The translations under genes were made by a program, and so were the position numbers. Under the pieces are notes generated by a model. It was not told the DNA's origin. It did not search any database and saw only the letters and a program-made list of their open reading frames with translations. A stretch of DNA of 64,000 nt from Dyadobacter sp. 50-39 (GTDB lineage Bacteria; Bacteroidota; Bacteroidia; Cytophagales; Spirosomataceae), in NCBI GenBank assembly GCA_001898145.1, contig MKSR01000008.1:186001-250000 (forward strand), written 5' to 3'. This document shows, one piece after another, positions 27,950-48,633 of this stretch. Numbering within the stretch: the stretch's first letter is position 1; every line of letters starts with the position of its first letter.

Positions 27950-28780
27950 ATGCTTTCATATATTATGTGGGACGCCAGTCCCGAAATATTTACCATTCCG
28001 GAAATCGCCGGTTTTGGTCCCTTCCCTGTCCGTTGGTATGGTCTTCTGTTCGCTGCCGGTTTCCTCATCGGCCAGCAAATTATGATTCATATTTTCAAGA
28101 AAGAAGGAAAAACGCTGGAAGATATCGACTCGCTCACGCTGTATATGGTGCTTTCGATCGTGATCGGCGCCCGGCTTGGCCACTTTCTTTTCTATGAACC
28201 CGAAGTACTGTTTAAAAATCCCCTGGAAGTGATATTACCTCCCTACGCGGGACTTGCGAGCCACGGGGCGGTGATCGGCACGGTCATCGGGCTGCTGCTG
28301 TACTCGCGCTCGCGGGCCGGTACCGGGCAGACGTTCTTCTGGGTCACCGACCGCCTCACGATCACTTTTGCATTGGGCGGTGCATTCATCCGCTTCGGTA
28401 ACCTGATGAACTCTGAAATCGTCGGAAAACCTTCCGATGTGCCCTGGGCATTCATTTTCAAGCAAAATACCGAGTTTCTCCAGATTCCGCGCCACCCGGC
28501 GCAGCTCTATGAGTCCATTTCCTGCTTCATCCTGACATTTATCCTGATCGCGATCTGGAACAAATACAAGGCAGCCACACCACGCGGCCTCATGGTAGGA
28601 GTGTTTCTCGTATGGGTGTTCACGTTGCGGTTCCTGTATGAGTTCCTGAAAGAAAACCAGGAGGCATTCGAAGCTAACTACGCATTGAATATGGGACAAA
28701 TCCTGAGTATCCCTGCGGTATTGCTCGGCCTGTTTTTCATCATCCGCTCACGCCAGAACCCGACCGAGGTAGCCAGCTGA
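27950..28780 (+). CDS. lgt: Prolipoprotein diacylglyceryl transferase
   Basis: A 276-aa polytopic inner-membrane enzyme that moves diacylglycerol from phosphatidylglycerol to the lipobox cysteine of prolipoproteins, the first step of lipoprotein maturation. Family blocks are present: VRWYGLLFAAGFLIG near residue 27, IGARLGHFLFYEP, the signature YAGLASHGAVIG near 100, GGAFIRFGNLMNSEIVG near 145 and PAQLYESISCF near 185. Many lipoproteins in this window (M13 peptidase, GH20, DUF3748, the 1246-aa protein) depend on this activity. An ATG at 27965 is a possible alternative start. Confidence 0.95.
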   Translation: MLSYIMWDASPEIFTIPEIAGFGPFPVRWYGLLFAAGFLIGQQIMIHIFKKEGKTLEDIDSLTLYMVLSIVIGARLGHFLFYEPEVLFKNPLEVILPPYAGLASHGAVIGTVIGLLLYSRSRAGTGQTFFWVTDRLTITFALGGAFIRFGNLMNSEIVGKPSDVPWAFIFKQNTEFLQIPRHPAQLYESISCFILTFILIAIWNKYKAATPRGLMVGVFLVWVFTLRFLYEFLKENQEAFEANYALNMGQILSIPAVLLGLFFIIRSRQNPTEVAS

Positions 28781-28866
28781 GCCGTCACGAAATGCAGTAG
28801 TCGTGCATCAGTGCGGTGTTTTCATTACATTGTAATTAGTTTGAAACCAACTCTAACAATTGTCAG

Positions 28867-29481
28867 ATGAAAACATCTTTTATAGCCGCATTTCTTTCGT
28901 GCGCCCTGCTTTTAAACGGCTGCGGCAGCAAACAGGAAGAAAAGGAAGCCGAAGAAAAAGCTGCTGCAGACAGCCCGGCCGACGCTCTGCAGGCCATTGC
29001 CGATAAAGCCAAGCAAATGGGCGATCGCGAGGCCGTAGACCCGGTCGATTTCCGAAAGCTGAAAGACCTCCTGCCCGAGTCGCTGGCCGGTTTGAGCCGT
29101 ACCGAAGCGACAGGCGAAAAAACCGGCGCAATGGGTTTTACGGTTTCAACAGCCCAGGCGAAATATAAAGGAAGCTCCGACGAATCGCTCGATGTTGAAA
29201 TTGTGGATACCGGCGGCATTGCCGGCGTCTCGACCATGGCGCTCGCTGCCTGGTCTATCGCAGAAATCGATAAGGAAACCACCACCGGCTACGAGAAAAC
29301 CACGACAATTGAAGGCTACAAGGCTTTTGAGAAGTACAACAACGAAAGTAAATCCGGCGAAATCAATGTACTGGTCGCAGACCGTTACGTAGTGAATGTG
29401 GAAGGCGATCACGTGAGCGTCGACCAGCTGAAAGAGGTGCTGAAAGCCATCGACCTCGGCAAGCTTAAAGACATGAAGTAG
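28867..29481 (+). CDS. Small lipoprotein of unknown function
   Basis: A 204-aa protein with a lipoprotein signal (SCALLLNGC, Cys19), followed by a charged linker rich in Glu, Lys and Ala (about 22-60). The remainder is a mixed alpha/beta domain: FRKLKDLLPESLAGLSRTEA, then YKGSSDESLDVEIVDTGG, then a C-terminal piece VLVADRYVVNVEGDHVSVDQLKE interrupted here only for brevity by its continuation. I do not recognise a named family. The periplasmic position is inferred from the lipobox. It stands alone behind lgt and ahead of a strong terminator. Confidence 0.72.
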   Translation: MKTSFIAAFLSCALLLNGCGSKQEEKEAEEKAAADSPADALQAIADKAKQMGDREAVDPVDFRKLKDLLPESLAGLSRTEATGEKTGAMGFTVSTAQAKYKGSSDESLDVEIVDTGGIAGVSTMALAAWSIAEIDKETTTGYEKTTTIEGYKAFEKYNNESKSGEINVLVADRYVVNVEGDHVSVDQLKEVLKAIDLGKLKDMK

Positions 29482-29490
29482 GCATAAGAA

Positions 29491-29520
29491 AAAAGCAGAA
29501 GCACGGACGCTTCTGCTTTT
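29491..29520. terminator. Bidirectional hairpin terminator
   Basis: A perfect 12-bp stem (29491-29502 with 29509-29520) with A-rich and T-rich flanks lies between the lipoprotein gene and the convergent sigma factor gene. Confidence 0.88.
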
Positions 29521-29559
29521 TAAGGTTTTAGGAATATGTAATGCCGGGCCAACAGCGTA

Positions 29560-30099
29560 TTATATCGTTGCCAGATCCACTTTCTCACGCAGGATCTGCT
29601 TGGCTTTCACTAACTGGTTTTTGACCGTATTCTTGGATATTCTTAAAAACTCCGCTATCTCCTGGTAGGATTTTCCTTCTTCAATATTCAGTTTCAAAAT
29701 CTGTCGCCGCTTGATCGACAGCGATTCAACCGCAGCCTGCACGACGGTCAGCCTTCTTTCGGCCTCCTCCCGCTCCTCCTCCCCCGCAGTGCGGATCGCT
29801 TCCATATAATGCCTGCGTAGCTGCTCGCTTTTTTCCAGTTTCTTGAAGTGATCGAACGCCATGTTCCGCAGGCAGGTGAACAGGTAGGAGTTGAAATTAT
29901 AGTCAGGCTTGATCTGGGTGCGTCTTACCCAGATTTTAATAAACACATCCTGAACCATATTTTCAGCTTCTTCCTCGTCTTTGAGCAATGAAACCGTGAA
30001 CCGCAGTGCAGGCGTTTTGTAGTGGTTATACAATTCTGCAAAGGCCGCTTCGTCGCCTTGCGTGACTCTGATCAGGGTATTTTCATCGGGGTAGGCCAC
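29560..30099 (-). CDS. ECF-type RNA polymerase sigma-70 factor
   Basis: A 179-aa sigma factor of the extracytoplasmic-function type. Region 2 covers about residues 22-90 (AAFAELYNHYKTPALRF, MVQDVFIKIWVRR, SYLFTCLRNMAFDHFKK) and region 4 about 120-170 (LSIKRRQILKLNIEEGKSYQ, ISKNTVKNQLVKAKQ). In Bacteroidota such genes are commonly followed by a FecR-type anti-sigma gene and a SusC/SusD pair; neither is present here, so it is an orphan in this window. Upstream lies a 569-base AT-rich region shared with the divergent kinase-phosphatase operon. Confidence 0.93.
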   Translation of the reverse strand: MAYPDENTLIRVTQGDEAAFAELYNHYKTPALRFTVSLLKDEEEAENMVQDVFIKIWVRRTQIKPDYNFNSYLFTCLRNMAFDHFKKLEKSEQLRRHYMEAIRTAGEEEREEAERRLTVVQAAVESLSIKRRQILKLNIEEGKSYQEIAEFLRISKNTVKNQLVKAKQILREKVDLATI

Positions 30100-30668
30100 A
30101 GTCGTACAGTTTAGCTTATAGAAAAGGGGACTAGGTAAAAAGATTATTGTATTAATTAAAAAACTTTTATTCTTGAATTCATCCTATTTATTAACCGGTG
30201 ATAATTCAAGCTTCTATGAGTTGCTGGTTCGTGTGGTATTAAAATAAAGTTGTTTCCAACATCGCCCCGGCAAAGGAATATTTTGCCATTGAAACAATCC
30301 GCGATGCTTTGTATTGAGTGGCGTATTTGTAATTGTTTGATAAATCTACGCTCACTAATTTAAAATTTGAATCGCAAAATGCGTAAAAATATCTTCAATT
30401 TGCGCAGCATTGTACGATTTAATCATAACATAATAGTAACTTATCATTAATTGCATATTTGCTCATTTCCAGCTAGTTCTTAGTAAAAAATACGTTGAAA
30501 TAACCGGTGGTTTCACAGCCTTTTCCGGACACCGCATTTAACAATTTTGTAACAATTGCCGCAAATCGCGGCAGCACCGATAGCCCTCCTTTCCGCATCG
30601 ATCGTATTACCCCAAAACAGACCAACACCTATATCCATTTTATCCTAAATCCAGACCAACCTTTGCTC
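30100..30668. other. 569-base AT-rich intergenic region
   Basis: This spans divergent genes: the ECF sigma factor on the left and the PfkB-HAD operon on the right. It is visibly AT-rich, with no supported gene. An open frame runs through its last 162 bases into the kinase gene from a GTG at 30507, but it shows no kinase homology before Met at 30669. It probably holds two divergent promoters and may hold an untranslated leader; I could not identify clear -33/-7 elements. Confidence 0.6.
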
Positions 30669-32594
30669 ATGGATCAAAGCCGCATCAATCAGATCTTGGA
30701 GAAAATCTCCGCCGTTCGGGTCGCCGTATATGGCGATTTCTGTCTCGACTCCTACTGGGTCATGGACGATCGCACATCCGAAGTGTCCATCGAAACCGGT
30801 TTGCAGGCGCAGGCTGTCGCCAGCCATTATTACACACCGGGAGGTGCCGGCAATGTGGTGGCCAACCTCGCGGCCCTCCGTCCGGCGGGTATCCGGGTGA
30901 TCGGTGTGGTGGGCGATGATATGCAGGGGCGGGAACTGGCGGCGCAACTCCAACAGCTCGGTGCGGAAACGAGTTCACTCGTGATCCAGAAAGAAAATTT
31001 TAATACATATAGTTATCTCAAACGGCTGGTCGACGGCCAGGAAGAGCCGCGTATTGATTTCGGCGTGTATAATGAAAGGAGCACGGATACCGACCGCCGG
31101 CTCGTGGCCGCGCTTGAAAAGGCATTACAGGAATGCGATGCGCTGATTTTCAACCAGCAGGTGACGGGAAGCATTACCAATACCTCTTTCATCGACGACG
31201 TCAATGCATTGTTCGATCAATATCCCGACAAAATCGTGATGCTGGATTCGCGGCATTTCAATGACAGTTTCCGGAATACCTGCCTGAAATGCAACGACCG
31301 GGAGATCGCCTCATTGAACGGACTGGAAGTAATGCCCGGCGAAAATGTGCCGGTAAGCGATGTGAAAGGCTACGGTACCGAAGTTTTCGGGCGGTACCAT
31401 AAGCCGGTATTCGTTACCTGCGGCGAACGCGGTATTATCGCATTCGACAATGCCGGTTACCACGAGGTACCGGGCATTCAGCTGAAAGGCAAGCTCGACA
31501 CCGTCGGTGCGGGTGATACCGCTATCAGCGCCATTACGCTATGCCTCGCAGCCGGGCTGACACCTGCCGAGGCGGCATTGTTCGGCAACTTTGCGGCGGC
31601 CGTAACGGTGCAGAAACTGTTTACAACCGGTACCGCAACGGGAGAAGAAATCGCACTGGTGGCGAAAGACCCGGACTACATCTACAATGCGGACCTGGCT
31701 GAAAACGAACGCGCGGCTACCTACTACCCGGAAACCGAATTCGAAATCTGTGTTCCCGAAATCCTCGACAAGTTGGGGCATATACGTTATGCCGTGTTTG
31801 ACCACGATGGGACCATCAGCTCGCTCAGGCAGGGATGGGAAGAAATTATGGAGCCTGTGATGATGAAATCCATTCTGGGCGAACACTATGAAACGATCGA
31901 CGCCGGAACATTTCATCGAGTGCAAGCCGAATGCAAGGCATTTATACACAAAACCACCGGCATTCAGACCATTTACCAGATGGAAGGGCTTGTAAACCTG
32001 GTCCGCGAATTCGGTTTTGTACCGGAAGACCAGATCCTCGACAAATTCCAGTACAAGGAGATCTACAACGACGGATTGATGGAAATGGTCAGCAAGCGCA
32101 TGGAAAAGCTGGCCAAAGGAGAACTGGGCCAGGAAGATTATACACTGAAAGGCGCCGTCGAATTCCTGAAACAGTTGAAAGAACGCGGCGTGACCATGTA
32201 CCTCGCGAGCGGCACCGACGTGGACGATGTGAAAAACGAAGCCCAAATGCTCGGCTACGCCGATCTGTTCGACGGCGGCATTTACGGTGCATTGCGCGAC
32301 TATACCAAGTTTTCCAAGAAAATGGTGATCGAAAAGATCATTCGCGACAATAATCTGCAAGGCAAAGAATTGGCTGTCTTCGGGGATGGCCCCGACGAAA
32401 TCCGCGAAGGGCGGCGTGCGGGAGGCATTTCGGTAGGCATTACCAGCAACGAAGTGCAGCGGTTCGGGCATAACCCGGCTAAGCGCCCGCGACTGGTGCG
32501 GGCAGGAGCGCAGCTGCTGATCCCTGATTTTTCACAACACAAAAAATTGATCAGCCTGCTGTTCCAGGAAAGCGAAAATTACGCGGAAGCCTGA
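30669..32594 (+). CDS. PfkB family sugar kinase - HAD phosphatase fusion
   Basis: A 641-aa cytosolic fusion. Residues about 1-330 are a ribokinase/PfkB domain closest in motif to the kinase half of HldE/RfaE (RVAVYGDFCLDSYW, YYTPGGAGNVVANLAAL), with the anion-hole GAGD ending at catalytic Asp283. Residues about 370-615 are a HAD hydrolase: DHDGT at 378-382 holds the nucleophile Asp378 and acid Asp380, and VFGDGPDEIREGRRAGG gives motif IV. One polypeptide thus both phosphorylates and dephosphorylates, possibly at different positions of one sugar. No signal peptide. The ATG at 30669 is chosen because homology starts there. It overlaps the next gene by one base (TGATG), giving translational coupling. 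Confidence 0.88.
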   Translation: MDQSRINQILEKISAVRVAVYGDFCLDSYWVMDDRTSEVSIETGLQAQAVASHYYTPGGAGNVVANLAALRPAGIRVIGVVGDDMQGRELAAQLQQLGAETSSLVIQKENFNTYSYLKRLVDGQEEPRIDFGVYNERSTDTDRRLVAALEKALQECDALIFNQQVTGSITNTSFIDDVNALFDQYPDKIVMLDSRHFNDSFRNTCLKCNDREIASLNGLEVMPGENVPVSDVKGYGTEVFGRYHKPVFVTCGERGIIAFDNAGYHEVPGIQLKGKLDTVGAGDTAISAITLCLAAGLTPAEAALFGNFAAAVTVQKLFTTGTATGEEIALVAKDPDYIYNADLAENERAATYYPETEFEICVPEILDKLGHIRYAVFDHDGTISSLRQGWEEIMEPVMMKSILGEHYETIDAGTFHRVQAECKAFIHKTTGIQTIYQMEGLVNLVREFGFVPEDQILDKFQYKEIYNDGLMEMVSKRMEKLAKGELGQEDYTLKGAVEFLKQLKERGVTMYLASGTDVDDVKNEAQMLGYADLFDGGIYGALRDYTKFSKKMVIEKIIRDNNLQGKELAVFGDGPDEIREGRRAGGISVGITSNEVQRFGHNPAKRPRLVRAGAQLLIPDFSQHKKLISLLFQESENYAEA

Positions 32595-34837
32595 TGCGAC
32601 CATTGCAAAAACAACTGTTTGTATGGCTGCTTGCCGGCTTTACGCCATTGCTCTGGTGTTGCCGGAATGAAAAGACCGTTGCCGACGAGCCATCCTTTTA
32701 CCAGGATCAGCCGTTTGCACAGGAATATCATGAAGCATACCCCATGGAAGGTAACGACGTCAGGGCCGTTCTTCCCGATCGCGACGGTAATGTATGGGCA
32801 GCCACTGCAAAAGGTATTTTTCGCAAAATGAAGGGTTTATCCAACTGGGTAGCAATGCTTGACGGTGAACAGAACGGGCCGTCGTTTTCGGTGGTGCAGG
32901 ATGAATCGGGCATTGTATGGATGGGCAGCTGGGACGGATTATACCAATATCAAAACGGAAAAATTTCGAAAGCGAACGGTCCCGCTGGCCCGATTTCGGC
33001 GATTTGTGCGAATGGCGGCACCATTTATGCGCTCGGCCCGAACGGTTTCTGGAAGGGGAATGCCAATGGCTTTACATTACAAAAAACGGCCATCGCGAAA
33101 TCCGTACGTGATGTAATCAGCGATGGAAAGAGCGGACTTTGGATAGCTTCCGACGTGGGACTTTACCATTGGACACCCACGCAGTTGGAACACACCTATA
33201 AAACCGACGCGTTGATCGCCGCCTACACCAAAGGCCTGGCGTATAACCATGATGGAAAGCTCTGGATTGGTGGTTTGGGTGGCGTTACGGTTCATAATAA
33301 TGGTAAAAAGGAGTCCGAACTGGGCACTGCCGAAGGCATTCCGTCGACTTACGTGACAGCGGTACGCCTAGCACCGGATAGCTCGATGTGGATAGGCACG
33401 CAAACCGGCGTGGTGCGCTTCCGGAAAGACGGCAGCCGCTCACTGCTTTTTTCGAGGAGATGGCTGCTGGATGACCAGGTCAACGACATTGCATTTGACC
33501 AGCAAGACAATGCATGGATCGCAACACCGCAGGGCGTGAGCGCGATCAAAAAGCGGGATATGACACTTGCTTCCAAAAGAGCATTCTTTTACGATGTATT
33601 AATGAAAAGGCATATCCGTGCACCATGGATTGCGGGCCAGGCACATTTGCGCGTTCCCGGAGATACTACAAGCTGGGAGCCGGAAGATGATGACAACGAC
33701 GGCGAATATACCGGTAACTACCTGGCGATGGAAAGCTTTCGCTATGCTGCCACCAAGGAGCCGGCAGCGAGGGAGAATGCAAAAAAGGCATTCGGCTTCC
33801 TGAAACTATTACAGGATGTGACGGGTACCAATGGCTTCTTCGCACGTACGATCATCCCTGCCACGTGGACGCGTATGCACGACGGTAACCGCACCTATTC
33901 CGAACGTGAGCGCGCGGACGAGCTCGTAAAAGAACCCCGGTTCAAACCGGTGGAGACACGCTGGCATTTGTCCGGAGATAAAAAGTGGCTTTGGAAAGGA
34001 GATACGAGCAGCGATGAAATGTGCGGGCATATGTTTGGCTATTACTACTACTACACGCTCGCGGCGAATGCCCAAGAGAAAAAGGTAATCGCTGCGCATG
34101 TGGGCAGAATCGTGGATTACCTCATGCAGCACAACCTCAATTTTGCGGATGTGGACGGCAAGGCTACCCGCTGGTCGGTATGGTCGCCGGACCAGCTCAA
34201 CCGTGACCCGGAATGGTTGCCCGACCGTAACCAGAACTCGATGGAAATGCTCGCATTCCTGAAACTGGCGCATTTCATGACAGGTAATGCCAAATACGAA
34301 AAAGAGTACCTCCGGCTGATTGAAAAAGAGCATTACCTCGATAATATGAAGGAAGTAACCCGGCAAAATCCGGCCTGGTTCATCTATTTCGATGTGGTAC
34401 TTCAAGCCTACCTCTACCCGATCCTGATCCATTGCGAGCAGGACCCGGAACGTTTAAAGTTTTACAAAAACCATCTGGAAGAATGGTTCCTGAAACGCAA
34501 AGGCGACCATAACCCACTGATTAACTTCATTTACAATGAATGCCTGAATAAAAGAGCAGAACTGAAAAACTCCGTGGATTTCCTCATCGACACGCCGCTA
34601 GACCTGATAGACTGGCCGATCGATCACCGGAAACGGGAAGATATTCAGGTAGTACGCACGCCGGTACTCGAAGACGAACAAGTGAATGTATTGCAGCCCG
34701 CTAGCATCAGGCTGACCGTCCGCTGGGATAAAAATCCATGGACACTGGCCGGCGGGAATCCGGAAGTGGAGCGCGAGCCGGTATTCTGGCTGCTGCCCTA
34801 TTGGATGGGCCGGTATTTGGGAATGATTTCAAAATAG
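32594..34837 (+). CDS. Secreted beta-propeller + helical toroid protein, paralog 1
   Basis: A 747-aa protein with a lipoprotein-like or signal sequence (LLWCC around residues 20-24). Residues about 45-330 are repeated blades with the two-component-regulator propeller pattern (DRDGNVWAATAKGIF, DESGIVWMGSWDGLY, DSSMWIGTQTGVVRF). Residues about 350-740 are helical and aromatic-rich, like an alpha/alpha toroid: DNDGEYTGNYLAMESFRYA, then GDTSSDE (Asp470-Glu475), then RWSVWSPDQLNRDPEW. It ends WLLPYWMGRYLGMIS, a block shared with the paralog at 35916. No signal-transduction domain follows the propeller, so this is not a hybrid sensor. Catalysis on a polysaccharide is inferred from fold resemblance and neighbours only. 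Confidence 0.75.
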   Translation: MRPLQKQLFVWLLAGFTPLLWCCRNEKTVADEPSFYQDQPFAQEYHEAYPMEGNDVRAVLPDRDGNVWAATAKGIFRKMKGLSNWVAMLDGEQNGPSFSVVQDESGIVWMGSWDGLYQYQNGKISKANGPAGPISAICANGGTIYALGPNGFWKGNANGFTLQKTAIAKSVRDVISDGKSGLWIASDVGLYHWTPTQLEHTYKTDALIAAYTKGLAYNHDGKLWIGGLGGVTVHNNGKKESELGTAEGIPSTYVTAVRLAPDSSMWIGTQTGVVRFRKDGSRSLLFSRRWLLDDQVNDIAFDQQDNAWIATPQGVSAIKKRDMTLASKRAFFYDVLMKRHIRAPWIAGQAHLRVPGDTTSWEPEDDDNDGEYTGNYLAMESFRYAATKEPAARENAKKAFGFLKLLQDVTGTNGFFARTIIPATWTRMHDGNRTYSERERADELVKEPRFKPVETRWHLSGDKKWLWKGDTSSDEMCGHMFGYYYYYTLAANAQEKKVIAAHVGRIVDYLMQHNLNFADVDGKATRWSVWSPDQLNRDPEWLPDRNQNSMEMLAFLKLAHFMTGNAKYEKEYLRLIEKEHYLDNMKEVTRQNPAWFIYFDVVLQAYLYPILIHCEQDPERLKFYKNHLEEWFLKRKGDHNPLINFIYNECLNKRAELKNSVDFLIDTPLDLIDWPIDHRKREDIQVVRTPVLEDEQVNVLQPASIRLTVRWDKNPWTLAGGNPEVEREPVFWLLPYWMGRYLGMISK

Positions 34838-34852
34838 AAACAAATAGTCGAC

Positions 34853-35902
34853 ATGAAGACCTATCTTTTGTTCACCAACCTGCTATTACTGGTCATGCAA
34901 GAAACGTCCGCACAACAAACCTATGCCGAAAAACTCGGCTGGCCGAAAGGCGCGAAGGTCATCATATTCCACGTCGACGATGCCGGAATGTCTCATTATT
35001 CGAACGAAGGTGCTAAAAAGTCGATACAGAATGGCATTGCCACCTCATGCAGCATTATGATGCCGTGCCCGTGGGCCGCCGGTTTCGCCAAATATGCCCT
35101 TGAAAACCAGGGAATGGATGCCGGACTGCATTTGACGCTCACTTCGGAATGGAAAGAATACCGCTGGCCTCCGCTGAACGGCATCTCGCATTCGGATGGG
35201 CTGGTGGACGATGAGGGCTGTATGTGGCATACCGTGGAAGATGTGATCAGACACGCCAGCCCGGAAGTGGTGGAACAGGAAATACGGGCCCAGCTGAGCC
35301 GCGCATTGAAACTCGGGCTCAAACCCACGCACATGGATTCGCACATGGGCACATTGTTCGCACACATCCCTTATCTGGAGCGGTATATCAAGGTCGGGGC
35401 GGAGTTTGGCATCCCGGTGATGTTCCCCGGGGGAAACAACCAGCTTCTGAAAGAGTGCCTGAACAACCCGCTGGTCAAAAAGCTCAAAGCCGAAGGCAAA
35501 TGGAAAGACGGAATGGAACTTCCCGAGCCCGAAATCACCAAACGCTCCGGAGAATTTGGCCAGAAAATCTGGGCGGCCGGCCTGCCGGTGCTTGACGACC
35601 TGCACACCATCAGCGGCGACTGGAAACCGGAAGGCAATGATGTAACGCCGGCCGAATGGGGCAAATACAAAGCGCGGAAGTTTATCGAAACGATCCGCAA
35701 AATGCAGCCTGGCGTGGCAATGATGATTGTCCACAGCAGCGAGGTCACCGACGATTTCAAATACATCAGCGCCTCGGGTGGGTCGCGCTATGCCGATATG
35801 CTTTCCATGCTCGACCCCGACCTGAAAGCTTTCGTTCAATCGGAAGGCATTATCCTGACCACCTGGAAAGAGCTGATGGAAAGAAGAAAAAAAGTAAAAT
35901 AA
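34853..35902 (+). CDS. YdjC/ChbG-type carbohydrate deacetylase, secreted
   Basis: A 349-aa protein with a signal peptide (about 1-20, ending TSAQQ) and a YdjC domain. The metal-site blocks are visible: HVDDAGMSHYSNEGA (Asp-Asp pair), DAGLHLTLTSEW (His), and HMDSHMGTLFAH (two His). ChbG of this family removes an acetyl group from chitooligosaccharides. Here it is exported and lies between two paralogous propeller-toroid proteins (15 and 13 bases apart), which suggests it trims acetyl groups from the same glycan those proteins handle. Substrate is inferred. Confidence 0.88.
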   Translation: MKTYLLFTNLLLLVMQETSAQQTYAEKLGWPKGAKVIIFHVDDAGMSHYSNEGAKKSIQNGIATSCSIMMPCPWAAGFAKYALENQGMDAGLHLTLTSEWKEYRWPPLNGISHSDGLVDDEGCMWHTVEDVIRHASPEVVEQEIRAQLSRALKLGLKPTHMDSHMGTLFAHIPYLERYIKVGAEFGIPVMFPGGNNQLLKECLNNPLVKKLKAEGKWKDGMELPEPEITKRSGEFGQKIWAAGLPVLDDLHTISGDWKPEGNDVTPAEWGKYKARKFIETIRKMQPGVAMMIVHSSEVTDDFKYISASGGSRYADMLSMLDPDLKAFVQSEGIILTTWKELMERRKKVK

Positions 35903-35915
35903 CCAACTCAATACA

Positions 35916-38135
35916 ATGCAAAAGCGCTTTTTACTCTCCCTCCTGTTGCTGACGGGCGTAACCATCACGCGTGCACAGGTACAGCCCGTGTATAAGGACA
36001 AGCCCTATTTACAAGATCTCAGTATCAAATATTATGCGGATACTACCCAGAGTTCGCTCCGGCAGGTAGCCTCGGACCGAAACGGGATCGTCCAGATGCT
36101 TGCCAAAGAAGGGCTCCGGCACACTTCGGCCGGTCAGTTTCTCTACCCCGGCCAAGTCGTTCCCGACCGTAACTACCGGTATATGAAGGATAAGAACATC
36201 AGCGCACTCATTGCTTACCAGGATCAATTGGTGTACCTCACCGACCAGGTTGTATTCAGCAACGCATGGGCCGGAACGCTGTTTTCAAAACATAATCTTT
36301 CCAAAGCCAATTTACTCGCCGGCGGCAAAGATTTTACGTTCCTGGTTTCTGACGGTGCCGCGCTGGAACTGATCAAGGATTCAAAAAGTCTCTGGAATGG
36401 CAAGCTGCCGGACGACTCCGTGATCGGACTGGCATTTCAGGGTAATGCGAACCAGTTCTGGATTTTGGGTAGCAAATCAGTTTATAAGCTGGCCGTGCAG
36501 GACAAAAAGCTGAGCAAAGTACTGTCAGGCTCGGATTTCACGGCATTTGATGTTACTTCCAAAGAGACCAAAATCATCGTCGGCACACTCAACGGTTATC
36601 TTTCCCTGGATATAGCAACCGGCAAACAAACCGGCAGCATCAACCGCAAACTTCCGGTAACCAAGATCAATACTGTGAAAGAAGTGAATGGTAAAGTGTG
36701 GTTCGGCTCGGATATGGGTGCATTCGCATTGCGTAGCGACGGCAAATTCGATTATTATTTCGGCGAGCGATGGCTTCCGGGGAATGCGGTAACCGATATT
36801 GCCAAGGGACCTAAAAACTCAGTGCTGGTATTGACCACCAGAGGTTTGGGGCAGATCCAGTTCAAATCGATGACACTGGAAGAAAAGGCGAAGCTTTTTG
36901 ACCAGCAGGTAAGGCTGCGCCACATTCGAAACGGGTTCAACTCGCAATTGACCGGACTTACTCACGGGGATTTGGCAACCGGCTATACGGAAGATTCTGA
37001 CAACGACGGGCTTTGGACCTCCATGTACCTCGGCGGACAGATTTTCAGGTACGCCGTCACCAGGGATCCCGACGCATTGCAAAACTGCCGCGAGTCCATG
37101 GACGCGATGGAGCGGCTTTATACCGTGAACCCGGTTGCGGGGTTCCCCGCCCGTTCCTATGAGCGCTCAGGGCATATCAACGAGCTGCACGACATCGAAC
37201 GCTGGCAGCACTCCCCCGAAAAAGAATGGGACTGGAAAGCAACGACCAGCAGCGACGAAGTGATCGGCCATATTTTCGCGTTCGGTGCTGCGGCAGAGCT
37301 GATCGACGATCCGAAAATCAAGAAACAGGCTGTTATGCTCATCGATACGCTCATGTCGCACATTGTGAAAAACAATATGTACCTGATCGACTACGACGGC
37401 AAGCCTACGCAGTGGGGCAAATGGCATCCGGATTATGTGAATTCATTCCCTACCAATGTCGGCGACCGCAAGCTGAACTCTTCGAACATTGTGGCGATGC
37501 TGCAAACTGCCTACCACTTCACGAAAAAGGAGAAATATAAGGCAAAGGCATTTGAGCTGATGAATAAGCATGGCTATTTCGAAAACATGATGCGGTCGAT
37601 GAGCATTATCGGACGCGCACCGGAAAATGCAGATGAACACGCGAAACACATGTCGGACGGCTGGAACCATTCGGACGATGAAATGTACTTTCTAGGCTAT
37701 TGGGGACTGTACCGCTACGCGCTCAACGACACCCTGAAAGCCAATTACAAAAAGCAGATCATCGATCACTGGCAGGCAGAGCGTCCCGAGAAAGAAGGGG
37801 CCTGGAACATTTTCACGGCATTGACCGGCACAAAAGATTTCGATCTGAACGAATCCGCCTGGTATTTGCGGGAACATCCGATGGATCTTATCGACTGGGT
37901 GATCAAAAACAGCCATCGCAAGGACATTGAAATGCTGGAACCCAATTTCCGGAAACAAACCACCAAAGAAGTACTGCCTCCCGACGAGCGCCCTATCCAG
38001 CGTCATAACGGCAACATGTTCAGCCTCGACCGCAACGGCGGCAATGGTTCCGGCGAACACAGTGCCGGCGATATCTGGCTGCTGCCCTACTGGATGGGCC
38101 GCTACCTCGGTATTATCAGCACTCCTCAAAAGTAG
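35916..38135 (+). CDS. Secreted beta-propeller + helical toroid protein, paralog 2
   Basis: A 739-aa protein with a signal peptide (about 1-21, ending TRAQ). The N-terminal half is a propeller with blades less regular than in paralog 1 (VRQVASDRNGIVQML-like start, later KVWFGSDMGAFALRSDGK). The C-terminal half is the same helical toroid: EDSDNDGLWTSMYLGG corresponds to the DNDGEYTGNYL block of paralog 1, ATTSSDEVIGHIF (Ser445-Glu448) to GDTSSDEMCGHMF, and PTQWGKWHPDYVN to the RWSVWSPDQLN block. Both end in WLLPYWMGRYLG. The conserved acidic pair after SS is a candidate functional site. It lies 13 bases after the deacetylase gene. Function unknown. Confidence 0.75.
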   Translation: MQKRFLLSLLLLTGVTITRAQVQPVYKDKPYLQDLSIKYYADTTQSSLRQVASDRNGIVQMLAKEGLRHTSAGQFLYPGQVVPDRNYRYMKDKNISALIAYQDQLVYLTDQVVFSNAWAGTLFSKHNLSKANLLAGGKDFTFLVSDGAALELIKDSKSLWNGKLPDDSVIGLAFQGNANQFWILGSKSVYKLAVQDKKLSKVLSGSDFTAFDVTSKETKIIVGTLNGYLSLDIATGKQTGSINRKLPVTKINTVKEVNGKVWFGSDMGAFALRSDGKFDYYFGERWLPGNAVTDIAKGPKNSVLVLTTRGLGQIQFKSMTLEEKAKLFDQQVRLRHIRNGFNSQLTGLTHGDLATGYTEDSDNDGLWTSMYLGGQIFRYAVTRDPDALQNCRESMDAMERLYTVNPVAGFPARSYERSGHINELHDIERWQHSPEKEWDWKATTSSDEVIGHIFAFGAAAELIDDPKIKKQAVMLIDTLMSHIVKNNMYLIDYDGKPTQWGKWHPDYVNSFPTNVGDRKLNSSNIVAMLQTAYHFTKKEKYKAKAFELMNKHGYFENMMRSMSIIGRAPENADEHAKHMSDGWNHSDDEMYFLGYWGLYRYALNDTLKANYKKQIIDHWQAERPEKEGAWNIFTALTGTKDFDLNESAWYLREHPMDLIDWVIKNSHRKDIEMLEPNFRKQTTKEVLPPDERPIQRHNGNMFSLDRNGGNGSGEHSAGDIWLLPYWMGRYLGIISTPQK

Positions 38136-38143
38136 ATTTTGCC

Positions 38144-39514
38144 ATGAGACTTGTTTCTATCCCGGTTTTAACGTTCCTAACTTTCATAAGCATGCAATCC
38201 TGCCAGACCGACACCGCAGAAAAGCAGATCACTCACGACCTGACCTACCATCACGACCTGGACAACAACGACAACTTTTCGCCGGACGGGCAGTGGCTTG
38301 TGTATGATACCAGGACGGACGAGGGCGGCATCGCGGAATCGGCGCGGATCGAGCGGGTGAACATTGAAACGGGAGAGAAACAAGTTCTCTTTGATATTCC
38401 AAAAAATGCGGTTTGGGGGCCTGGTGCAGGTGCCGTAAGTTATAGTCCGAAGGAAAATGCAGTTGTATTCATCCACGGACTATCAACCAGCACCCACGAA
38501 AACCCTTACCAGCAATGGCGCCGCACCGGCGTGATCATCCACGACGCCCGCCCCAACGTGCCCGTATACATGGACGCTCGCGACGTAACGCCCCCTTATA
38601 CGCCCGGCGCATTGCGGGGAGGCACGCACCGGCACGAGTGGAGCGGCGATGGCCAATGGATCGGATTTACTTACAACGACGCCATCCTGAAAGCCCTGGA
38701 AGATTCCACTGGCCAAAAGCGCAACCTGCGGACGATCGGCGTTTCCAAAAAGATCCGGGCCGTCCACGTGGATCAAAATGCTGAGAATGTATCCGGGGAA
38801 TGGTTTAGTGCATTGGTGGTGCGGGTTGTGCCAAATCCTGCCCCGGGAAGCGACGAGATCAGCCATGCCGCAAGCGACAGCTGGGTAGGAACGAATGGCT
38901 ACATTACGCAAAACGGCAAAACACAGATTGCCCGGGCATTCCTGGGCACTGTGAAAGACGAAAACGGCAACGACGTTCCGGAAGTTTTCATCGTCGACAT
39001 TCCCGATGACATTACCCAGGCCGGTCCGCTTGGGCCACTCGAAGGAACTGCCACGGATTTCCCGATGCCACCCAAAGGAACCGTACAGCGCCGCCTGACG
39101 TTCACAGCCAACAGCCCGCAGCCTGGCTGTACCGGCATTGTCCGCTCTTCACCGGATGGCAGCCAGCTCGCATTTCTGGCCAAAGATGCGAACGGCATCA
39201 GCCAGATCTTCACCATTTCGCCCAATGGCGGCAAACCGTGGCAGGTAACAGAATACACTTCCGACATCACCGGCAACCTCCGGTGGCACCCGGATGGAAA
39301 GCACATCACCTATGTGTATGACGGCAGCATTGTGCTTTGCGAGGTAGGTGAGGCACCGTTTGAAGAAAGAATTCGTGTATTAACCGAGCCCTCCGAATAT
39401 CCCGCAGGCAATCTGGTATGGTCGGCCGATGGCAAGGTACTGGCGTTTAACCGGCTGGTGAAGAATGATGCCGGAAAAGGTGTTCAGCAGGTTTTTGTGT
39501 TGCATACTCATTAA
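38144..39514 (+). CDS. DUF3748 family TolB-like propeller lipoprotein (YidR-like)
   Basis: A 456-aa protein with a lipobox (ISMQSC, Cys22) and a TolB/WD40-like propeller: repeated strands of the type NFSPDGQWLVYDTR, WSGDGQWIGFTYND, SSPDGSQLAFLAKD, WHPDGKHITYVYDG. The block SHAASDSWVGTNGY and the ordering of the repeats match DUF3748, the family of E. coli YidR. No enzymatic motif is seen; a ligand- or glycan-binding role is plausible. It is 8 bases from the second propeller-toroid gene and is the last gene of this operon. Confidence 0.82.
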   Translation: MRLVSIPVLTFLTFISMQSCQTDTAEKQITHDLTYHHDLDNNDNFSPDGQWLVYDTRTDEGGIAESARIERVNIETGEKQVLFDIPKNAVWGPGAGAVSYSPKENAVVFIHGLSTSTHENPYQQWRRTGVIIHDARPNVPVYMDARDVTPPYTPGALRGGTHRHEWSGDGQWIGFTYNDAILKALEDSTGQKRNLRTIGVSKKIRAVHVDQNAENVSGEWFSALVVRVVPNPAPGSDEISHAASDSWVGTNGYITQNGKTQIARAFLGTVKDENGNDVPEVFIVDIPDDITQAGPLGPLEGTATDFPMPPKGTVQRRLTFTANSPQPGCTGIVRSSPDGSQLAFLAKDANGISQIFTISPNGGKPWQVTEYTSDITGNLRWHPDGKHITYVYDGSIVLCEVGEAPFEERIRVLTEPSEYPAGNLVWSADGKVLAFNRLVKNDAGKGVQQVFVLHTH

Positions 39515-39567
39515 GCAGCACGATTGTTCTGCCTTCTAGCCGCTTTGGAAATTGGACTCCGATAAAA

Positions 39568-40122
39568 TTAGAAGTTAACTTTTCTGTAAACCACACTTAG
39601 CGGCAAGTCAGTATTGAAATACGGAAGCTTAATCACGTCATCCATTTTTTCGTAGACCTCAAAGTACCAGCGCTCGCCGTCGCGCATGTGCATTTCCACC
39701 CGGCATTTGGTCTGTTCTATCATCAGGTAGTATTGCAGGGATGGGTCTGACGAATATTCCCGGAGCTTTTCATCCCGATCAGTCCTGGCTGTGCTTTCGG
39801 ATAACACCTCTACGATGAGCAACGGCAAGGTGGTGTATCGAACGGCATCGCCCTTCTCTTCGCAGATCAGGAAATCGGGTATGCGGACAACCCTGCCGTC
39901 TTCCAATCTTAACTTGACTGCATTTTGATAGAGCTCATACGGGCTATTCTGCAAAATACTGCGAAGATAGAAATGAATATTCCCAGCAATCCGATTGGAA
40001 GTAGTTGTTTCTCCAGACATCTCGATGATTTCTCCGTTGACGAATTCGAACCGGCCTTCATGTGTTTCACAAAAGGCGAAGTATTCTTCCAGTGAATAGA
40101 GTCTTTCAGCCACAGCTTCCAT
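39568..40122 (-). CDS. Uma2 family endonuclease (DUF820)
   Basis: A 184-aa PD-(D/E)XK-fold protein of the Uma2/DUF820 family. Visible motifs are the N-terminal YSLEEYFAFCETHEGRFEFVNG with the conserved Glu, then RIPDFLICEE (Asp), LPLLIVEVLSEST (Glu) and the following DRDEKLREY (Lys). These proteins are abundant in cyanobacteria and Bacteroidota with no assigned function; some are transposon-associated. Here it stands alone between two carbohydrate clusters, with no transposase or inverted repeat next to it. Confidence 0.9.
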   Translation of the reverse strand: MEAVAERLYSLEEYFAFCETHEGRFEFVNGEIIEMSGETTTSNRIAGNIHFYLRSILQNSPYELYQNAVKLRLEDGRVVRIPDFLICEEKGDAVRYTTLPLLIVEVLSESTARTDRDEKLREYSSDPSLQYYLMIEQTKCRVEMHMRDGERWYFEVYEKMDDVIKLPYFNTDLPLSVVYRKVNF

Positions 40123-40192
40123 ATTTCTGCTTTATTTTCAAAAATAGTGAATTACAGGGTAATGCAGTTTGGCAAACGTTGTGTAATGCAAT

Positions 40193-41221
40193 TTACGACT
40201 TCTCCAACCGAATCGACGACCTTCTGATAATCAGTTCCGATCGCAGGATAATTGGCTCTGAATGATCGATGGTTTTCGTGCCATTTAGTTGGCCAATCAT
40301 GGTAGTCATCGCCGTTTTGCCCATCTGGTAACCCGGGTAAAAAACAGTGCTCAGTTGGGGTGACACCACCTGTGAAACCGGGTCATTGTTGAATCCTACG
40401 ATAGCAATATCACCGGGCACCGCATAACCCTTTTCTTTCAGCACCTGCATGCAAATCGCCGCGCACAGGTCGTTGGCGATAAACAGCCCGTCCGGCCGCT
40501 CTTCCATTTGATCAATTTGTTCGGCCATGGCCCGCCCGGCCTCCTGGCTGAGATCGGTAGATACAATGAACCGGTTATCCAGCGGCAGCTTCCGCCCGGC
40601 CAACGCACGTTTGTACCCCTCCATCCGATCGGCATATACATTTCGTCGAAGGTCTCCCGTAATGTGCATAATCCTGCGGCAGCCCTGATCCAGCAAATGG
40701 CTTGTAGCGTCATAGCCGGCCTGCTCGTTGTCGATCGTTACAGCGCCGCATTGCGGGTGGTTCATAATGCGATCGAAGAAGAGTACCGGGATGTTCCGGG
40801 TGATGAACGTGGAGAAATGTTCGAACGAATCGGTGTCGTAGGCGACGGACACCAGCAGCCCGTCGACGCGGCTGTTGAACATCGTTTTCGCATTGGCCTG
40901 CTCTTTGAGTTCCGACTCCAACGACTGGCTGATCAGCAGGTTATAACCAAAATTATTAGCAACCTCCTCCATTCCGGCAAGTACGGTCGACATGAAATTA
41001 CTGTTCAGCCTCGGCACGATCACACCCAGCGTATTCGTCTTGCGCGTACGCAGATGGCTCGCGAAAGTGTTGGAGCGATATCCCAGCTCGGCGGCCTTGT
41101 CCGCAATGAGCACCTTCGTTTTTGCGTTAATGGCAGGATGGTCGTTCAGTGCCCTGCTCACCGTCGCCGGCGACAATGCGAGTATTTTTGCGAGGTCGTA
41201 AATGGTAATTTCCTTTTCCAT
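40193..41221 (-). CDS. LacI family transcriptional regulator
   Basis: A 342-aa regulator with an N-terminal LacI helix-turn-helix and hinge (ITIYDLAKILALSPATVSRA, residues 5-24) and a periplasmic-binding-like sensor (about 62-340: TLGVIVPRLNSNFMSTVLAGM, VPVLFFDRIM-type strand, DLCAAICMQVLKEKG, DIAIVGFNNDP). It is divergent from uxuA with 168 bases between, and a LacI-type palindrome lies in that gap. The likely effector is a hexuronate or an intermediate such as mannonate. Repression of the uxuA operon and possibly its own gene is inferred. Confidence 0.92.
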   Translation of the reverse strand: MEKEITIYDLAKILALSPATVSRALNDHPAINAKTKVLIADKAAELGYRSNTFASHLRTRKTNTLGVIVPRLNSNFMSTVLAGMEEVANNFGYNLLISQSLESELKEQANAKTMFNSRVDGLLVSVAYDTDSFEHFSTFITRNIPVLFFDRIMNHPQCGAVTIDNEQAGYDATSHLLDQGCRRIMHITGDLRRNVYADRMEGYKRALAGRKLPLDNRFIVSTDLSQEAGRAMAEQIDQMEERPDGLFIANDLCAAICMQVLKEKGYAVPGDIAIVGFNNDPVSQVVSPQLSTVFYPGYQMGKTAMTTMIGQLNGTKTIDHSEPIILRSELIIRRSSIRLEKS

Positions 41222-41332
41222 TATTCTTTTCTTGTAAGGGATCGCAGGGGCATTCTCCGTCTGGTATTTATGCTTTGAATTTAACTGCTTTTTCGACAGA
41301 AACCCCTGTGTCCGAAATTTACAGCAAATTAA

Positions 41333-41346
41333 TGCAATCGGTTACA
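41333..41346. promoter_or_regulatory. LacI-family operator candidate
   Basis: TGCAATCGGTTACA fits the pseudo-palindrome TGnAAnCGnTTnCA, with the central CG typical of LacI-family operators. It lies in the divergent gap between the LacI gene and uxuA, 44 bases before the uxuA start codon. Confidence 0.65.
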
Positions 41347-41389
41347 ATACAATATTATATTTATATTTTTATAAAAAATTCATACAGTT

Positions 41390-42595
41390 ATGATTCACAC
41401 CATGCGCTGGTTCGGCCCTCATGACCCGGTTTCGCTGATGGATATCCGTCAGGCGGGATGCAGCGGCGTGGTGACGGCCCTGCACCAGGTGCCTGTTGGC
41501 GATATATGGACTAACGAGGCGATCCGGGAGAGAATTTCGCTGGTAGAAGCAGGTAATGAGCAACATACACCGCTAAAATGGCTGGTGGTGGAAAGCCTGC
41601 CGGTGCATGAACATATCAAGAAAGGACTACCGTCACGCGCGCAATACATTGAAAACTACAAGGAGTCTCTCCGAAATCTGGCGGCGGAAGGGATCCGGAC
41701 TGTTTGCTACAACTTCATGCCGGTACTCGACTGGTCCCGCACCGACCTTGCCTACACCTTTCCGGAAGGCCATAAAACGCTGCGGTTTGTGTGGGAGGAC
41801 TTTGCTTTGTTCGACCTTTATATTCTGCAACGGCCAGGCGCCGAGGCAGACTACGATGAGCAGGTTCGGGAGTCGGCCCGGCAGAAGCTCCGGAATATGT
41901 CGCCTGCCGAAGTGCAGATCCTGACCAACACGGTATTGCTGGGCCTGCCAGGCTCGGAGGAGGCATTTGAACTCACTAACTTCCAGGAGCTGCTTAATGC
42001 ATACGCCGAGATCGGCGACAAGGAATTGCGCGACAACCTCTACTACTTCGTCAGCCAGGTGGCACCCGTGGCGCAGGAATTGGGCATAAATCTCTGCATT
42101 CACCCCGACGATCCCCCGTGCCCGCTGCTCGGGTTGCCCCGGGTAGTGAGCACCGAAGCTGATCTGGCCCGGCTCATGCAAGCTTGCGACATCCGCGCCA
42201 ACGGCATTACCTTCTGTACCGGCTCGCTCGGCGTCCGGGCTGACAACGATTTGCCCGGAATTATCCGTCGGCTGGGCGATCGTATCCATTTTGTGCACCT
42301 CCGAACGACCAAAAGAGAAGCCGGGGACAATCGCAACTTCCACGAGGCCCCGCATTTGGATGGCGATGTGGATATGTACGAAGTGGTCAAAGCATTACAC
42401 CACGAAGAGCTGCGCCGAAATGCTGCGAACTATGCCGATCACCTGCTTCCGATGCGCCCCGACCACGGGTTTCAAATGCTCGACGATCTGCATAAAAAAA
42501 CTTACCCCGGCTATTCCATGATCGGCCGACTCAAAGCGCTTGCGGAGCTCCGCGGCCTTGAAATGAGCATTGCCCGATCGGTTCACGAATTATAA
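41390..42595 (+). CDS. uxuA: Mannonate dehydratase
   Basis: A 401-aa cytosolic enzyme that dehydrates D-mannonate to 2-keto-3-deoxy-D-gluconate in hexuronate breakdown. The N terminus MRWFGPHDPVSLMDIRQAG and blocks TVCYNFMPVLDWSRTDL, INLCIHPDDPPCPLLGLPR, TFCTGSLGVRADNDLP and the C-terminal HHEELRRNAANYADHLLPMR are distinctive of UxuA. It is the first gene of a four-gene operon and faces a divergent LacI regulator. No uxaC, uxaB, kduI or kdg kinase is in this window, so the remaining steps are elsewhere. Confidence 0.96.
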   Translation: MIHTMRWFGPHDPVSLMDIRQAGCSGVVTALHQVPVGDIWTNEAIRERISLVEAGNEQHTPLKWLVVESLPVHEHIKKGLPSRAQYIENYKESLRNLAAEGIRTVCYNFMPVLDWSRTDLAYTFPEGHKTLRFVWEDFALFDLYILQRPGAEADYDEQVRESARQKLRNMSPAEVQILTNTVLLGLPGSEEAFELTNFQELLNAYAEIGDKELRDNLYYFVSQVAPVAQELGINLCIHPDDPPCPLLGLPRVVSTEADLARLMQACDIRANGITFCTGSLGVRADNDLPGIIRRLGDRIHFVHLRTTKREAGDNRNFHEAPHLDGDVDMYEVVKALHHEELRRNAANYADHLLPMRPDHGFQMLDDLHKKTYPGYSMIGRLKALAELRGLEMSIARSVHEL

Positions 42596-42620
42596 TCAAG
42601 GTTTTATAGCATTAAAAATA

Positions 42621-43412
42621 ATGTCCGTTAACAGTCAAATCGAAACAGTACCATCCTTGAAAGTCTTTTCGCTGGAAGGCAAAATTGCCCTCGTAACCGG
42701 TGGGGGAAGCGGCATCGGCTTCTACATTGCGCAATGCTTCGCGCAAGCGGGCGCACAGCTGGTGATCACGGGCAGGCGCGAGGAGGTTTTGAAAGAAGCC
42801 TTACCGAAACTTGGCCCGAATGCAAAGTATTTTGTCAATGATATCACCGACCTGAAAACGCTGCCGGCACTAATCGAGGCAATTGAGACGGAAGTCGGCG
42901 AAATCGATATTCTGGTCAACAATGCAGGCATTAATATGAAAAAACACGCGGTGGAAGTTACAGACGAAGATTTCAACCGGGTGGTACAAACCAACCTCCA
43001 CGCAGTTTTCTCGATCACCCGCGAATGCGGCAAGCGTATGGTCGAACGCAGGCGCGGCTCCATTCTCATGGTCACTTCCATGGCTGCATTATATGGTATC
43101 GACCGTGTGGTGGCCTATACGGCGTCGAAGTCGGCTGTCGGAGGGATGGTGAAAGCATTGACCACTGAATTTTCACCTTACAATGTGCGTGTCAACGCCA
43201 TTGCACCCGGTTTTATAGAAACACCGATGATGCTCACCGCGATGAACGGTGACCCGTCACGCCGCGACAAGGCCATGGACCGCACGCCGATGGGTACCTG
43301 GGGCAAACCGGACGATATCGGCTGGGCCGCCGTATTCCTGAGCTCCGAAGCCGCCAAATTCATCACAGGCGTCTCGCTGCCGGTAGATGGGGGGAATTCT
43401 ATTGGATTTTAG
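42621..43412 (+). CDS. SDR family oxidoreductase, probable mannonate/fructuronate or sugar-acid dehydrogenase
   Basis: A 263-aa short-chain dehydrogenase. The NAD(P) loop TGGGSGIG is near residue 33 (VTGGGSGIGFYIAQCFA), NNAGINM near 108, and the catalytic Ser-Tyr-Lys is visible in MVTSMAALYG and AYTASKSAVGG. The C terminus has the typical GVSLPVDGGNSIGF. Sequence style resembles gluconate 5-dehydrogenase-like SDRs. It follows uxuA by 25 bases, taking the place of the long-chain UxuB mannonate oxidoreductase, so it may link fructuronate and mannonate. The ATG at 42621 is chosen over an upstream in-frame codon at 42570 that would overlap uxuA and lacks homology. Confidence 0.9.
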   Translation: MSVNSQIETVPSLKVFSLEGKIALVTGGGSGIGFYIAQCFAQAGAQLVITGRREEVLKEALPKLGPNAKYFVNDITDLKTLPALIEAIETEVGEIDILVNNAGINMKKHAVEVTDEDFNRVVQTNLHAVFSITRECGKRMVERRRGSILMVTSMAALYGIDRVVAYTASKSAVGGMVKALTTEFSPYNVRVNAIAPGFIETPMMLTAMNGDPSRRDKAMDRTPMGTWGKPDDIGWAAVFLSSEAAKFITGVSLPVDGGNSIGF

Positions 43413-43435
43413 TTAAACCTTTTCTTTTCTTATCA

Positions 43436-44293
43436 ATGAAAAAACAAAACATCCTGACAACAACCCTGCTATGCCTGCTGTTTCTCGGGCTGGGGTGGCC
43501 GGTGAGCACACACGCGCAAAAGATTAAATGGAATAAGGTAAAAGTGCTGGTGTATACCAAAAACGGGAAAGGCTACGTACATGACAACATCGCCAATTCC
43601 AAAGTGGCAATTCTTGCACTGGGGAAACAAAATGGCTTTGCGGTAGACACTACATCCGACCCTTCGAAGTTTACGGACGAAAATTTGAAACAATACGATT
43701 GCCTCGTTTTTTCGAATACCAACAACGACGTCTTCGACACTGACGCCCAACGCGTTGCATTAATGCGGTACATTCAGGCAGGCGGCAACTTTGTGGGGCT
43801 GCATTCGGCGTCGGGCACCGAGCGCAAGTGGCGCTGGTTCAAAGACCTGCTGGGCGGTACTTTCTTCTGGCATGAGCCCGGGCAAAGCTTCTCCGTAAAA
43901 GTCCTTGACCCGAAAAACCCTTCCCTTACGCACTTGGGCAAAACCTGGCCCCGTGAGGTGGACGAGTTCTATTTTATCAAAGAATTGGGCGTAAACCTTC
44001 ACGTACTCGCTGTAAACGATCATTCTACGATTCAGAAACCTGCCGGAAAAGCGCTGGATACATTTGGAGATGTGTTTCCGTCGGTCTGGTGGCATGAGTA
44101 CGACGGCGGCCGCGCGTTCTACACGTCGCTCGGGCACCAGAAAGAGGATTACGAAAAAGAAGACCTGCGCAAGCACATCCTGGGTGCCATTGAATGGGCC
44201 ATCGGACCCCAGAAACCCCGAAATTACAGCAAAGCTTATGCAACCAGCCCTCAGGATACTGTGCGCGGAGCCATTCCTGCATTGTCTAAATAA
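43436..44293 (+). CDS. Secreted ThuA domain-containing protein
   Basis: A 285-aa protein with a signal peptide (about 1-28, ending THAQ) followed by a ThuA-like, class I glutamine-amidotransferase-fold domain: KVLVYTKNGKGYVHDNI, YDCLVFSNTNNDVF, GGNFVGLHSASGTER, FFWHEPGQSFSVKV and WWHEYDGGRAFYTSLGHQ. ThuA proteins are linked to trehalose and related sugar use, with no settled reaction. It is 23 bases after the SDR gene and 41 before a Gfo/Idh/MocA gene; the same pair of families recurs at 57.6-63.3 kb. Confidence 0.92.
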   Translation: MKKQNILTTTLLCLLFLGLGWPVSTHAQKIKWNKVKVLVYTKNGKGYVHDNIANSKVAILALGKQNGFAVDTTSDPSKFTDENLKQYDCLVFSNTNNDVFDTDAQRVALMRYIQAGGNFVGLHSASGTERKWRWFKDLLGGTFFWHEPGQSFSVKVLDPKNPSLTHLGKTWPREVDEFYFIKELGVNLHVLAVNDHSTIQKPAGKALDTFGDVFPSVWWHEYDGGRAFYTSLGHQKEDYEKEDLRKHILGAIEWAIGPQKPRNYSKAYATSPQDTVRGAIPALSK

Positions 44294-44334
44294 TCGAGAA
44301 CATATCAGTCATTCATCCTAAATCTGCATACAAA

Positions 44335-45768: not shown

Positions 45769-45773
45769 CAGAG

Positions 45774-45801
45774 ACGGGCGGCAGACAGTCGCCCGTTTTT
45801 G
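45774..45801 (+). terminator. Rho-independent terminator of uxuA operon
   Basis: A 7-bp GC-rich stem (45774-45780 with 45790-45796) is followed by a T tract (GTTTTTGTTTT). It lies 6 bases after the oxidoreductase stop. Confidence 0.85.
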
Positions 45802-45804
45802 TTT

Positions 45805-48593: not shown

Positions 48594-48633
48594 CCATCGA
48601 TTTTTGGCACAGCTCGTATTTAACCCCCATATC

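Follow-up and report, generated by a model that had tools for sequence, protein, structure and literature searches.

The 64,000-nt stretch of Dyadobacter DNA analyzed here (the window) carries five plus-strand genes, A to E, that belong to an operon whose gene order is kept across the genus; A, D and E are its constant members, B and the deacetylase gene C its optional ones, and the window lacks a sixth gene, F. We give roughly even chances to the reading that this is a derived polysaccharide-utilization-type operon, which would trim a glycan bearing N-acetylhexosamine and mannose outside the cytoplasm and handle a sugar phosphate inside the cell.

Operon layout and conservation in Dyadobacter

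The source genome comprises 7.72 Mb in 48 contigs, and Dyadobacter contigs matched the full length of D at up to 91%, with neighbors identical in kind. The five ORFs all lie on the plus strand, with junctions of -1, 15, 13 and 8 bases, and a sigma factor gene diverges from them:

29560..30099, minus strand: ECF-type sigma factor gene, divergent from the operon (Sigma70 regions 2 and 4)
30669..32594, plus strand: A, HldA-like PfkB kinase and HAD phosphatase fusion, predicted, 641 aa (Pfam/NCBIfam; 35/35 same-genus regions)
32594..34837, plus strand: B, propeller and helical-domain paralog 1, 747 aa (Pfam repeats, model; 24/35 same-genus regions)
34853..35902, plus strand: C, YdjC/ChbG-type deacetylase, predicted, export judged by eye, 349 aa (Pfam, motifs; 16/35 same-genus regions)
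35916..38135, plus strand: D, propeller and helical-domain paralog 2, 739 aa (model, alignment; 35/35 same-genus regions)
38144..39514, plus strand: E, DUF3748 protein, TolB-like propeller, possible lipoprotein, 456 aa (Pfam; 35/35 same-genus regions)

The ORF positions bear out the strand and junctions given in the initial annotation, which was also right on the anatomy of the genes (families, paralogy and named sequence blocks). The ORF list starts A at a GTG at 30507; the ATG at 30669 yields the N-terminus MDQSRI, as in relatives. By eye, the N-termini of B, C and D point to export and that of E to a lipoprotein. Promoter scans gave 7 sites (shuffle mean 10.1) and terminator scans 12 (shuffle mean 12.8). 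The sigma gene, which may control the operon, adjoined it in 33/35 same-genus regions by ORF calls and in the remaining two by tblastn.

When the helical half of B was used as query, matches were found in 36/36 same-genus relatives and in 1/22 other genomes of the order; regions from 35 of the 36 matching relatives were examined. In all 35 the genes lay on one strand in the order A-[B]-[C]-[F]-D-E (optional genes in brackets), and because this order is conserved throughout, chance clustering was ruled out. The arrangements observed were ABFDE (10 regions), AFDE (8), ABCDE (7; also the order of the window), ABCFDE (6), ACFDE (3) and ABDE (1), with A, D and E present in 35 regions, F in 27, B in 24 and C in 16. 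Intergenic gaps were measured from mechanical ORF starts, so that some ORF overlaps are artefacts; their median was 9 bases (n = 137), and 129 of them were 100 bases or shorter. The unit proposed in the initial annotation is thus conserved in its order, but its description as a five-gene system does not hold given the counts for B, C and F, and the deacetylase, placed there at the center of the operon, is missing from 19/35 regions. The joint pathway also proposed there is looser than was thought, because in Runella aurantiaca A lies with GH92, C and F on one contig and the B-D pair lies on another.

A hidden or broken F in the window was ruled out: tblastn detected no trace of the gene at 1e-3 in positions 28000-46000, and elsewhere in the source genome there were only partial-length matches, at 29-39% identity. 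Same-genus genomes additionally encode, outside the operon, further paralogs with 33 to 50% blastp identity to B or D (L070, 11481-13712; L071, 9914-12127; L072, 360-2522; L073, 10574-12754).

The kinase-phosphatase fusion A

Protein A matched the Pfam families PfkB (9.4e-26) and HAD hydrolase (2.1e-12), and the best NCBIfam model for its kinase half was the HldA kinase (TIGR02198), RfaE domain I, at 135.6 bits against a cut-off of 345. The cytosolic kinase-phosphatase fusion named in the initial annotation was therefore present and could be placed more precisely; from these matches, A is predicted to be a diverged relative of heptose-7-phosphate kinase (HldA/RfaE domain I) fused to an HAD phosphatase. 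Like HldA/HldE, A keeps the GGAGN and GAGD motifs (the latter within DTVGAGD at residue 277, the PfkB GAGD motif), but the PEAPVP stretch of the genome's other HldA reads SIETG in A, and the fusion to an HAD phosphatase and the score below the HldA cut-off further set it apart. The full set of kinase and HAD motifs was found in 18/20 fusions. A is not the sole HldA of its genome, as a separate and far better-scoring HldA reaches 327.4 bits, just below the cut-off, and one HldC and one GmhA, each over its cut-off, are also encoded elsewhere.

The fusion is rarer than the B/D family. At 1e-60, A was matched in 4/395 genomes at the level of the phylum (one with the kinase half only) and in 32/390 at that of the order (23 from this genus), and at 1e-40 in 7/395 at that of the class (four with the kinase half only and one cut). 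The B/D family, itself rare, was matched in 7/395 Bacteroidota genomes at 1e-20, the source genome included, and its helical domain spans five families of that sample. Outside the genus, the neighbors of A point to differing substrates. The arrangement A-GH92-C-F occurs in 6/6 fusion-bearing genomes of g23 (Runella-type) and in a Runella defluvii locus; GH92 is an alpha-mannosidase family. In genome G773 the order is HldC, A, C and then homologs of D and F (36 and 42% identity), and the HldC beside A is the sole copy over the cut-off in that genome. A GmhA-like isomerase gene lies between E and A in Cerina (144.5 bits, under the cut-off of 209.45), an AGE-like gene adjoins the kinase-only relatives of A in G636 and G530 (the G636 copy was scanned and fell below the cut-off), and an alpha-L-rhamnosidase-like gene, below its cut-off, precedes A in G072. 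At the G773 locus (L217, 8482-10983), where HldC is directly upstream of the A homolog, SusC/SusD, symporter and DapA-type genes were observed nearby.

The affinity of A to HldA raises the alternative that the operon serves the remodeling or synthesis of the cell's own envelope glycan, which would be trimmed or rebuilt and not fed upon, with A serving the supply of a nucleotide sugar by converting a sugar 7-phosphate to a 1-phosphate, as HldA and then GmhB do. We regard this as unlikely. Although HldA is the best model for A, the protein reaches just 135.6 of 345 bits, and canonical HldA, HldC and GmhA are encoded at other sites of the same genome. The HldA route runs through a kinase step and then a phosphatase step, consecutively, and the two halves of A match that succession, but its HAD half is, we assume, of the capped HAD_2 type, while the GmhB type is uncapped. 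The operon is without SusC/SusD, the only HldC of G773 over the cut-off lies just upstream of an A homolog, and one D homolog lies near what appear by eye to be lpxD, lpxC and lpxA (L069); set against this, the SusC/SusD, symporter and aldolase neighbors found in relatives suggest uptake. If our preferred reading of the operon is right, the linked HldA-like kinase-phosphatase fusion would constitute a new sugar-phosphate step.

The paralogs B and D

The alignment of B with D covers almost the full length of both proteins (26% identity across 767 columns, E 6.5e-62). Pfam recognized only Reg_prop propeller repeats, over cut-off, in B and no family in D. AlphaFold models of D (pLDDT 93.6, pTM 0.90) and B (pLDDT 89.9, pTM 0.89) both show a beta-propeller with a helical domain behind it, which agrees with the N-terminal propeller and C-terminal helical half first read from the letters. 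The sequence blocks noted at that stage proved real and could be located in the B-D alignment: DNDG lies within B 365-370 and D 360-365, TSSDE at B471 and D444, and the identical ending WLLPYWMGRYLG at B732 and D721. In a FastTree phylogeny of 34 helical halves, seven B-type (support 1.0) and 23 D-type sequences (0.989) formed separate groups, with four others beside them, and the duplication is therefore old.

The second half of the D model contains twelve helices of at least ten residues, and by this helix count, not by a fold match, the helical half is likely to be a closed six-hairpin toroid. Across the 34 aligned relatives, 41 of its polar or aromatic columns are conserved in 31 sequences or more. 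D364, D447, D492, D587, D657, D670, W440, W500, Y371 and Y725 were kept in 34/34 and D517 in 32/34, so the conserved acidic residues anticipated in the paralogs are indeed there; D364, D447, D517 and D587 (34, 34, 32 and 34 of 34) each stand at one of the first three positions of a helix, four helices in all. No histidine was kept in all 34 helical halves, the best being H336 (33/34). Since the helical half is rich in conserved Asp and poor in His, its residues suggest a hydrolase more than a classical lyase.

No Pfam, NCBIfam or PDB family matched the helical half. The best Pfam hit had an E value of 0.011 in 1/34 members, and the best PDB hit by sequence had an E value of 0.43, with no relative of known structure or activity; a PHROGs search with B and D also gave no match. 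AGE, GH92 and GH125, the three families compared by hhalign, were rejected as kin (probabilities of 14.1%, 0.8% and 0.3%). Foldseek searches with the whole models against PDB returned propellers as nearest, namely the sensor domains BT4673 and BT4663, and among the best 50 matches listed from PDB and viral models, which propellers led, no fold match of the helical half was isolated. The toroid family of B and D looks new.

The most likely role for B and D is that, once exported, they would cut a glycan within the toroid cleft, while the propeller would bind or position it. They could instead be binding or scaffold proteins that capture a surface glycan, and the sensor domains nearest to the propellers, together with the failure of either half to match an enzyme family, are in keeping with this; we nevertheless find it improbable, as the 41 near-invariant polar or aromatic columns, with acidic residues placed where helices begin, are what an active site typically shows, and tandem D copies stand beside hydrolases in several loci (among the best 80 of 549). 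Should the enzymatic reading be right, a helical-domain family of ~420 residues, unmatched in Pfam, NCBIfam and PDB, would be in need of an assigned activity, for which its conserved Asp set offers a direct test.

Accessory genes, related loci and candidate substrate

C belongs to Pfam YdjC (1.4e-54; 186.2 bits against a cut-off of 29.7) and matched PDB 8jqe at 4.6e-43. The ChbG-type site motifs were kept in 27/27 of its relatives, and in C the residues DD 42-43, H93, H160/H164 and H294, paired by motif and by alignment to TTHB029, are in line with the ChbG site (D10, D11, H61, H125 and H206) described in PMC9402603. C, a predicted deacetylase, resembles the ChbG/YdjC deacetylases (PMC9402603; PDB 8jqe, 2e67, 2i5i and 7vi8) in domain and site motifs, but it is ~100 aa longer than bacterial ChbG, has a signal sequence by eye and falls below every cut-off of the NCBIfam deacetylase models. 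A second YdjC protein of the source genome, 51% identical to C, is encoded on another contig (L221, 9236-10234), three ORFs from another HldA gene. E matched Pfam DUF3748 (1.9e-40), a family named in PMC7606416. In the relatives, F matched BNR_2 at 2.5e-51 and PDB sialidases at 2.6e-6 or weaker. Canonical sialidases carry a RIP motif near the N-terminus, and this motif was absent from the first 120 residues of all F proteins (0/31), which rules out a canonical sialidase; F shares the fold family of BNR_2 and sialidase-fold proteins but is without their RIP motif, and the operon of the window is without F.

A scan of named genomes took the best 80 of 549 confirmed candidates, 17 from Dyadobacter and 63 from other genera, and its counts therefore lean to close relatives. 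D was present in all 63 loci from other genera, accompanied by SusC or SusD in 29, F in 22 (4 weaker), C in 16, a purple-acid-phosphatase type in 15, B in 13 (10 weaker), a sigma gene in 13, GH92 in 12, E in 9 (5 weaker) and A in 3; in 13 of the 63, D occurred without the other five genes of A-F. Further exported hydrolases lay near D in loci outside the genus, and tandem D copies adjoined hydrolases in several loci among the best 80. The order B-C-F-D-E was found in three Emticicia loci and A-B-F-D-E in Telluribacter, and in several Spirosoma, Larkinella and Runella loci of this set the sigma gene lay between SusC/SusD and B or D. In L069 (6407-13811), a D homolog lies just downstream of genes resembling lpxD, lpxC and lpxA by eye, with symporter and DapA-type genes further beyond it.

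Behind the operon, positions 40193-45768 of the window hold UxuA, SDR, ThuA and Gfo/Idh genes and a LacI gene on the opposite strand, as in most Dyadobacter regions, and these seem to form a unit of their own for a sugar acid or glycoside. A single uronic-acid pathway uniting them with the operon was rejected, the genes being placed behind the opposite-strand LacI; UxuA and ThuA were absent from the 63 non-Dyadobacter loci (among the best 80 of 549), in which two SDR and several distant Gfo matches occurred. The window also carries genes for a GH20 hexosaminidase (10091-12697) and a GH125 alpha-mannosidase (55725-57155). Relatives of the former (48 to 63% identity) lay near D in 4/138 partly redundant regions, all four from other genera; the latter was found in 0/138.

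In the reading that we prefer, exported C would take acetyl groups off an N-acetylhexosamine, the sialidase-fold F of most relatives, lost in the window operon, would take off a further terminal residue, and E would act as an accessory propeller protein. The released sugar would then reach the cell interior, where the HldA-like half of A would phosphorylate it (or its phosphate) and the HAD half would remove a phosphate. Our best guess for the substrate is a glycan of the N-glycan or glycoprotein type bearing N-acetylhexosamine and alpha-mannose, favored because GH92, C and GH20 are among the neighbors. A glycan with phosphate and ulosonic acid or heptose is in turn favored by the phosphatases, the aldolases and the HldC case of G773, and was ranked below it. 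The glycan role assigned from the outset fits the SusC/SusD, GH92, sialidase-fold F and sometimes GH20 near the relatives' genes. Some observations run against our reading: an N-glycan would leave unaccounted for the phosphatases, aldolases and ceramidase-like proteins that lie near D in other genera, and is thereby rejected as the only substrate; B, C and F are dispensable in the genus; no SusC/SusD stands beside the operon; the helical half matched no protein of known activity or structure, and propellers led the fold searches; in Runella aurantiaca, A sits on another contig than the B-D pair; the GH125 gene of the window has no counterpart in the 138 regions; and no GH92 cluster member was found in the 17 Dyadobacter loci (among the best 80 of 549). 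Should the substrate prove an ordinary one, proteins that go unnamed in Pfam, NCBIfam and PDB would still gain a function.

Several of these neighbors would be accounted for if the operon scavenged glycans with heptose and ulosonic acid from the envelopes of other bacteria, but we hold this to be very unlikely. An F-type protein would remove the ulosonic acid, aldolases would split it, A and a GmhA-like isomerase would handle the heptose, and phosphatases and amidase-like proteins would strip the remainder. A is HldA-like and its homolog adjoins HldC in G773, yet its heptose-phosphate substrate is putative; DapA-type (5/80) and HpcH-type (6/80) aldolases occur among the best 80 of 549 loci, yet those scanned fell under every specific NCBIfam cut-off; and the sodium symporter family (4/80 loci), the purple acid phosphatase type (15/63) and the isomerase beside E and A in Cerina (144.5 bits, cut-off 209.45) belong to a set that is spread across genera and complete nowhere, the window holding only A. 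It is just as doubtful that B and D form a new carbohydrate-active enzyme family within an undescribed route of this kind, with A as a fused heptose-phosphate kinase-phosphatase.

No description of the operon or its proteins was found in the open-licence literature, including the accessible parts of PMC4691232 and PMC9402603, and this weakly supports the initial annotation's statement that no described system has this composition. The type of operon is already known. Because D loci outside the genus often include SusC/SusD, F, GH92 and exported hydrolases, the Dyadobacter operon would be a derived polysaccharide-utilization-type locus, and SusC/SusD may have been lost from the ancestral locus in Dyadobacter. 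As in the polysaccharide utilization loci of Bacteroidota, genes for putatively exported, hydrolase-like proteins are linked to one another and to a divergent ECF sigma factor gene, and SusC or SusD accompanies 29/63 of the related loci (among the best 80 of 549). The window operon differs in that SusC/SusD was found neither within it, nor among the five genes behind it, nor in ten further large ORFs of the window that were scanned (a TonB receptor gene at 48604 adjoins a PepSY protein). It differs also in that B and D, linked to the YdjC-type C, fall outside the Pfam enzyme families, and in beginning with a predicted cytosolic kinase-phosphatase.
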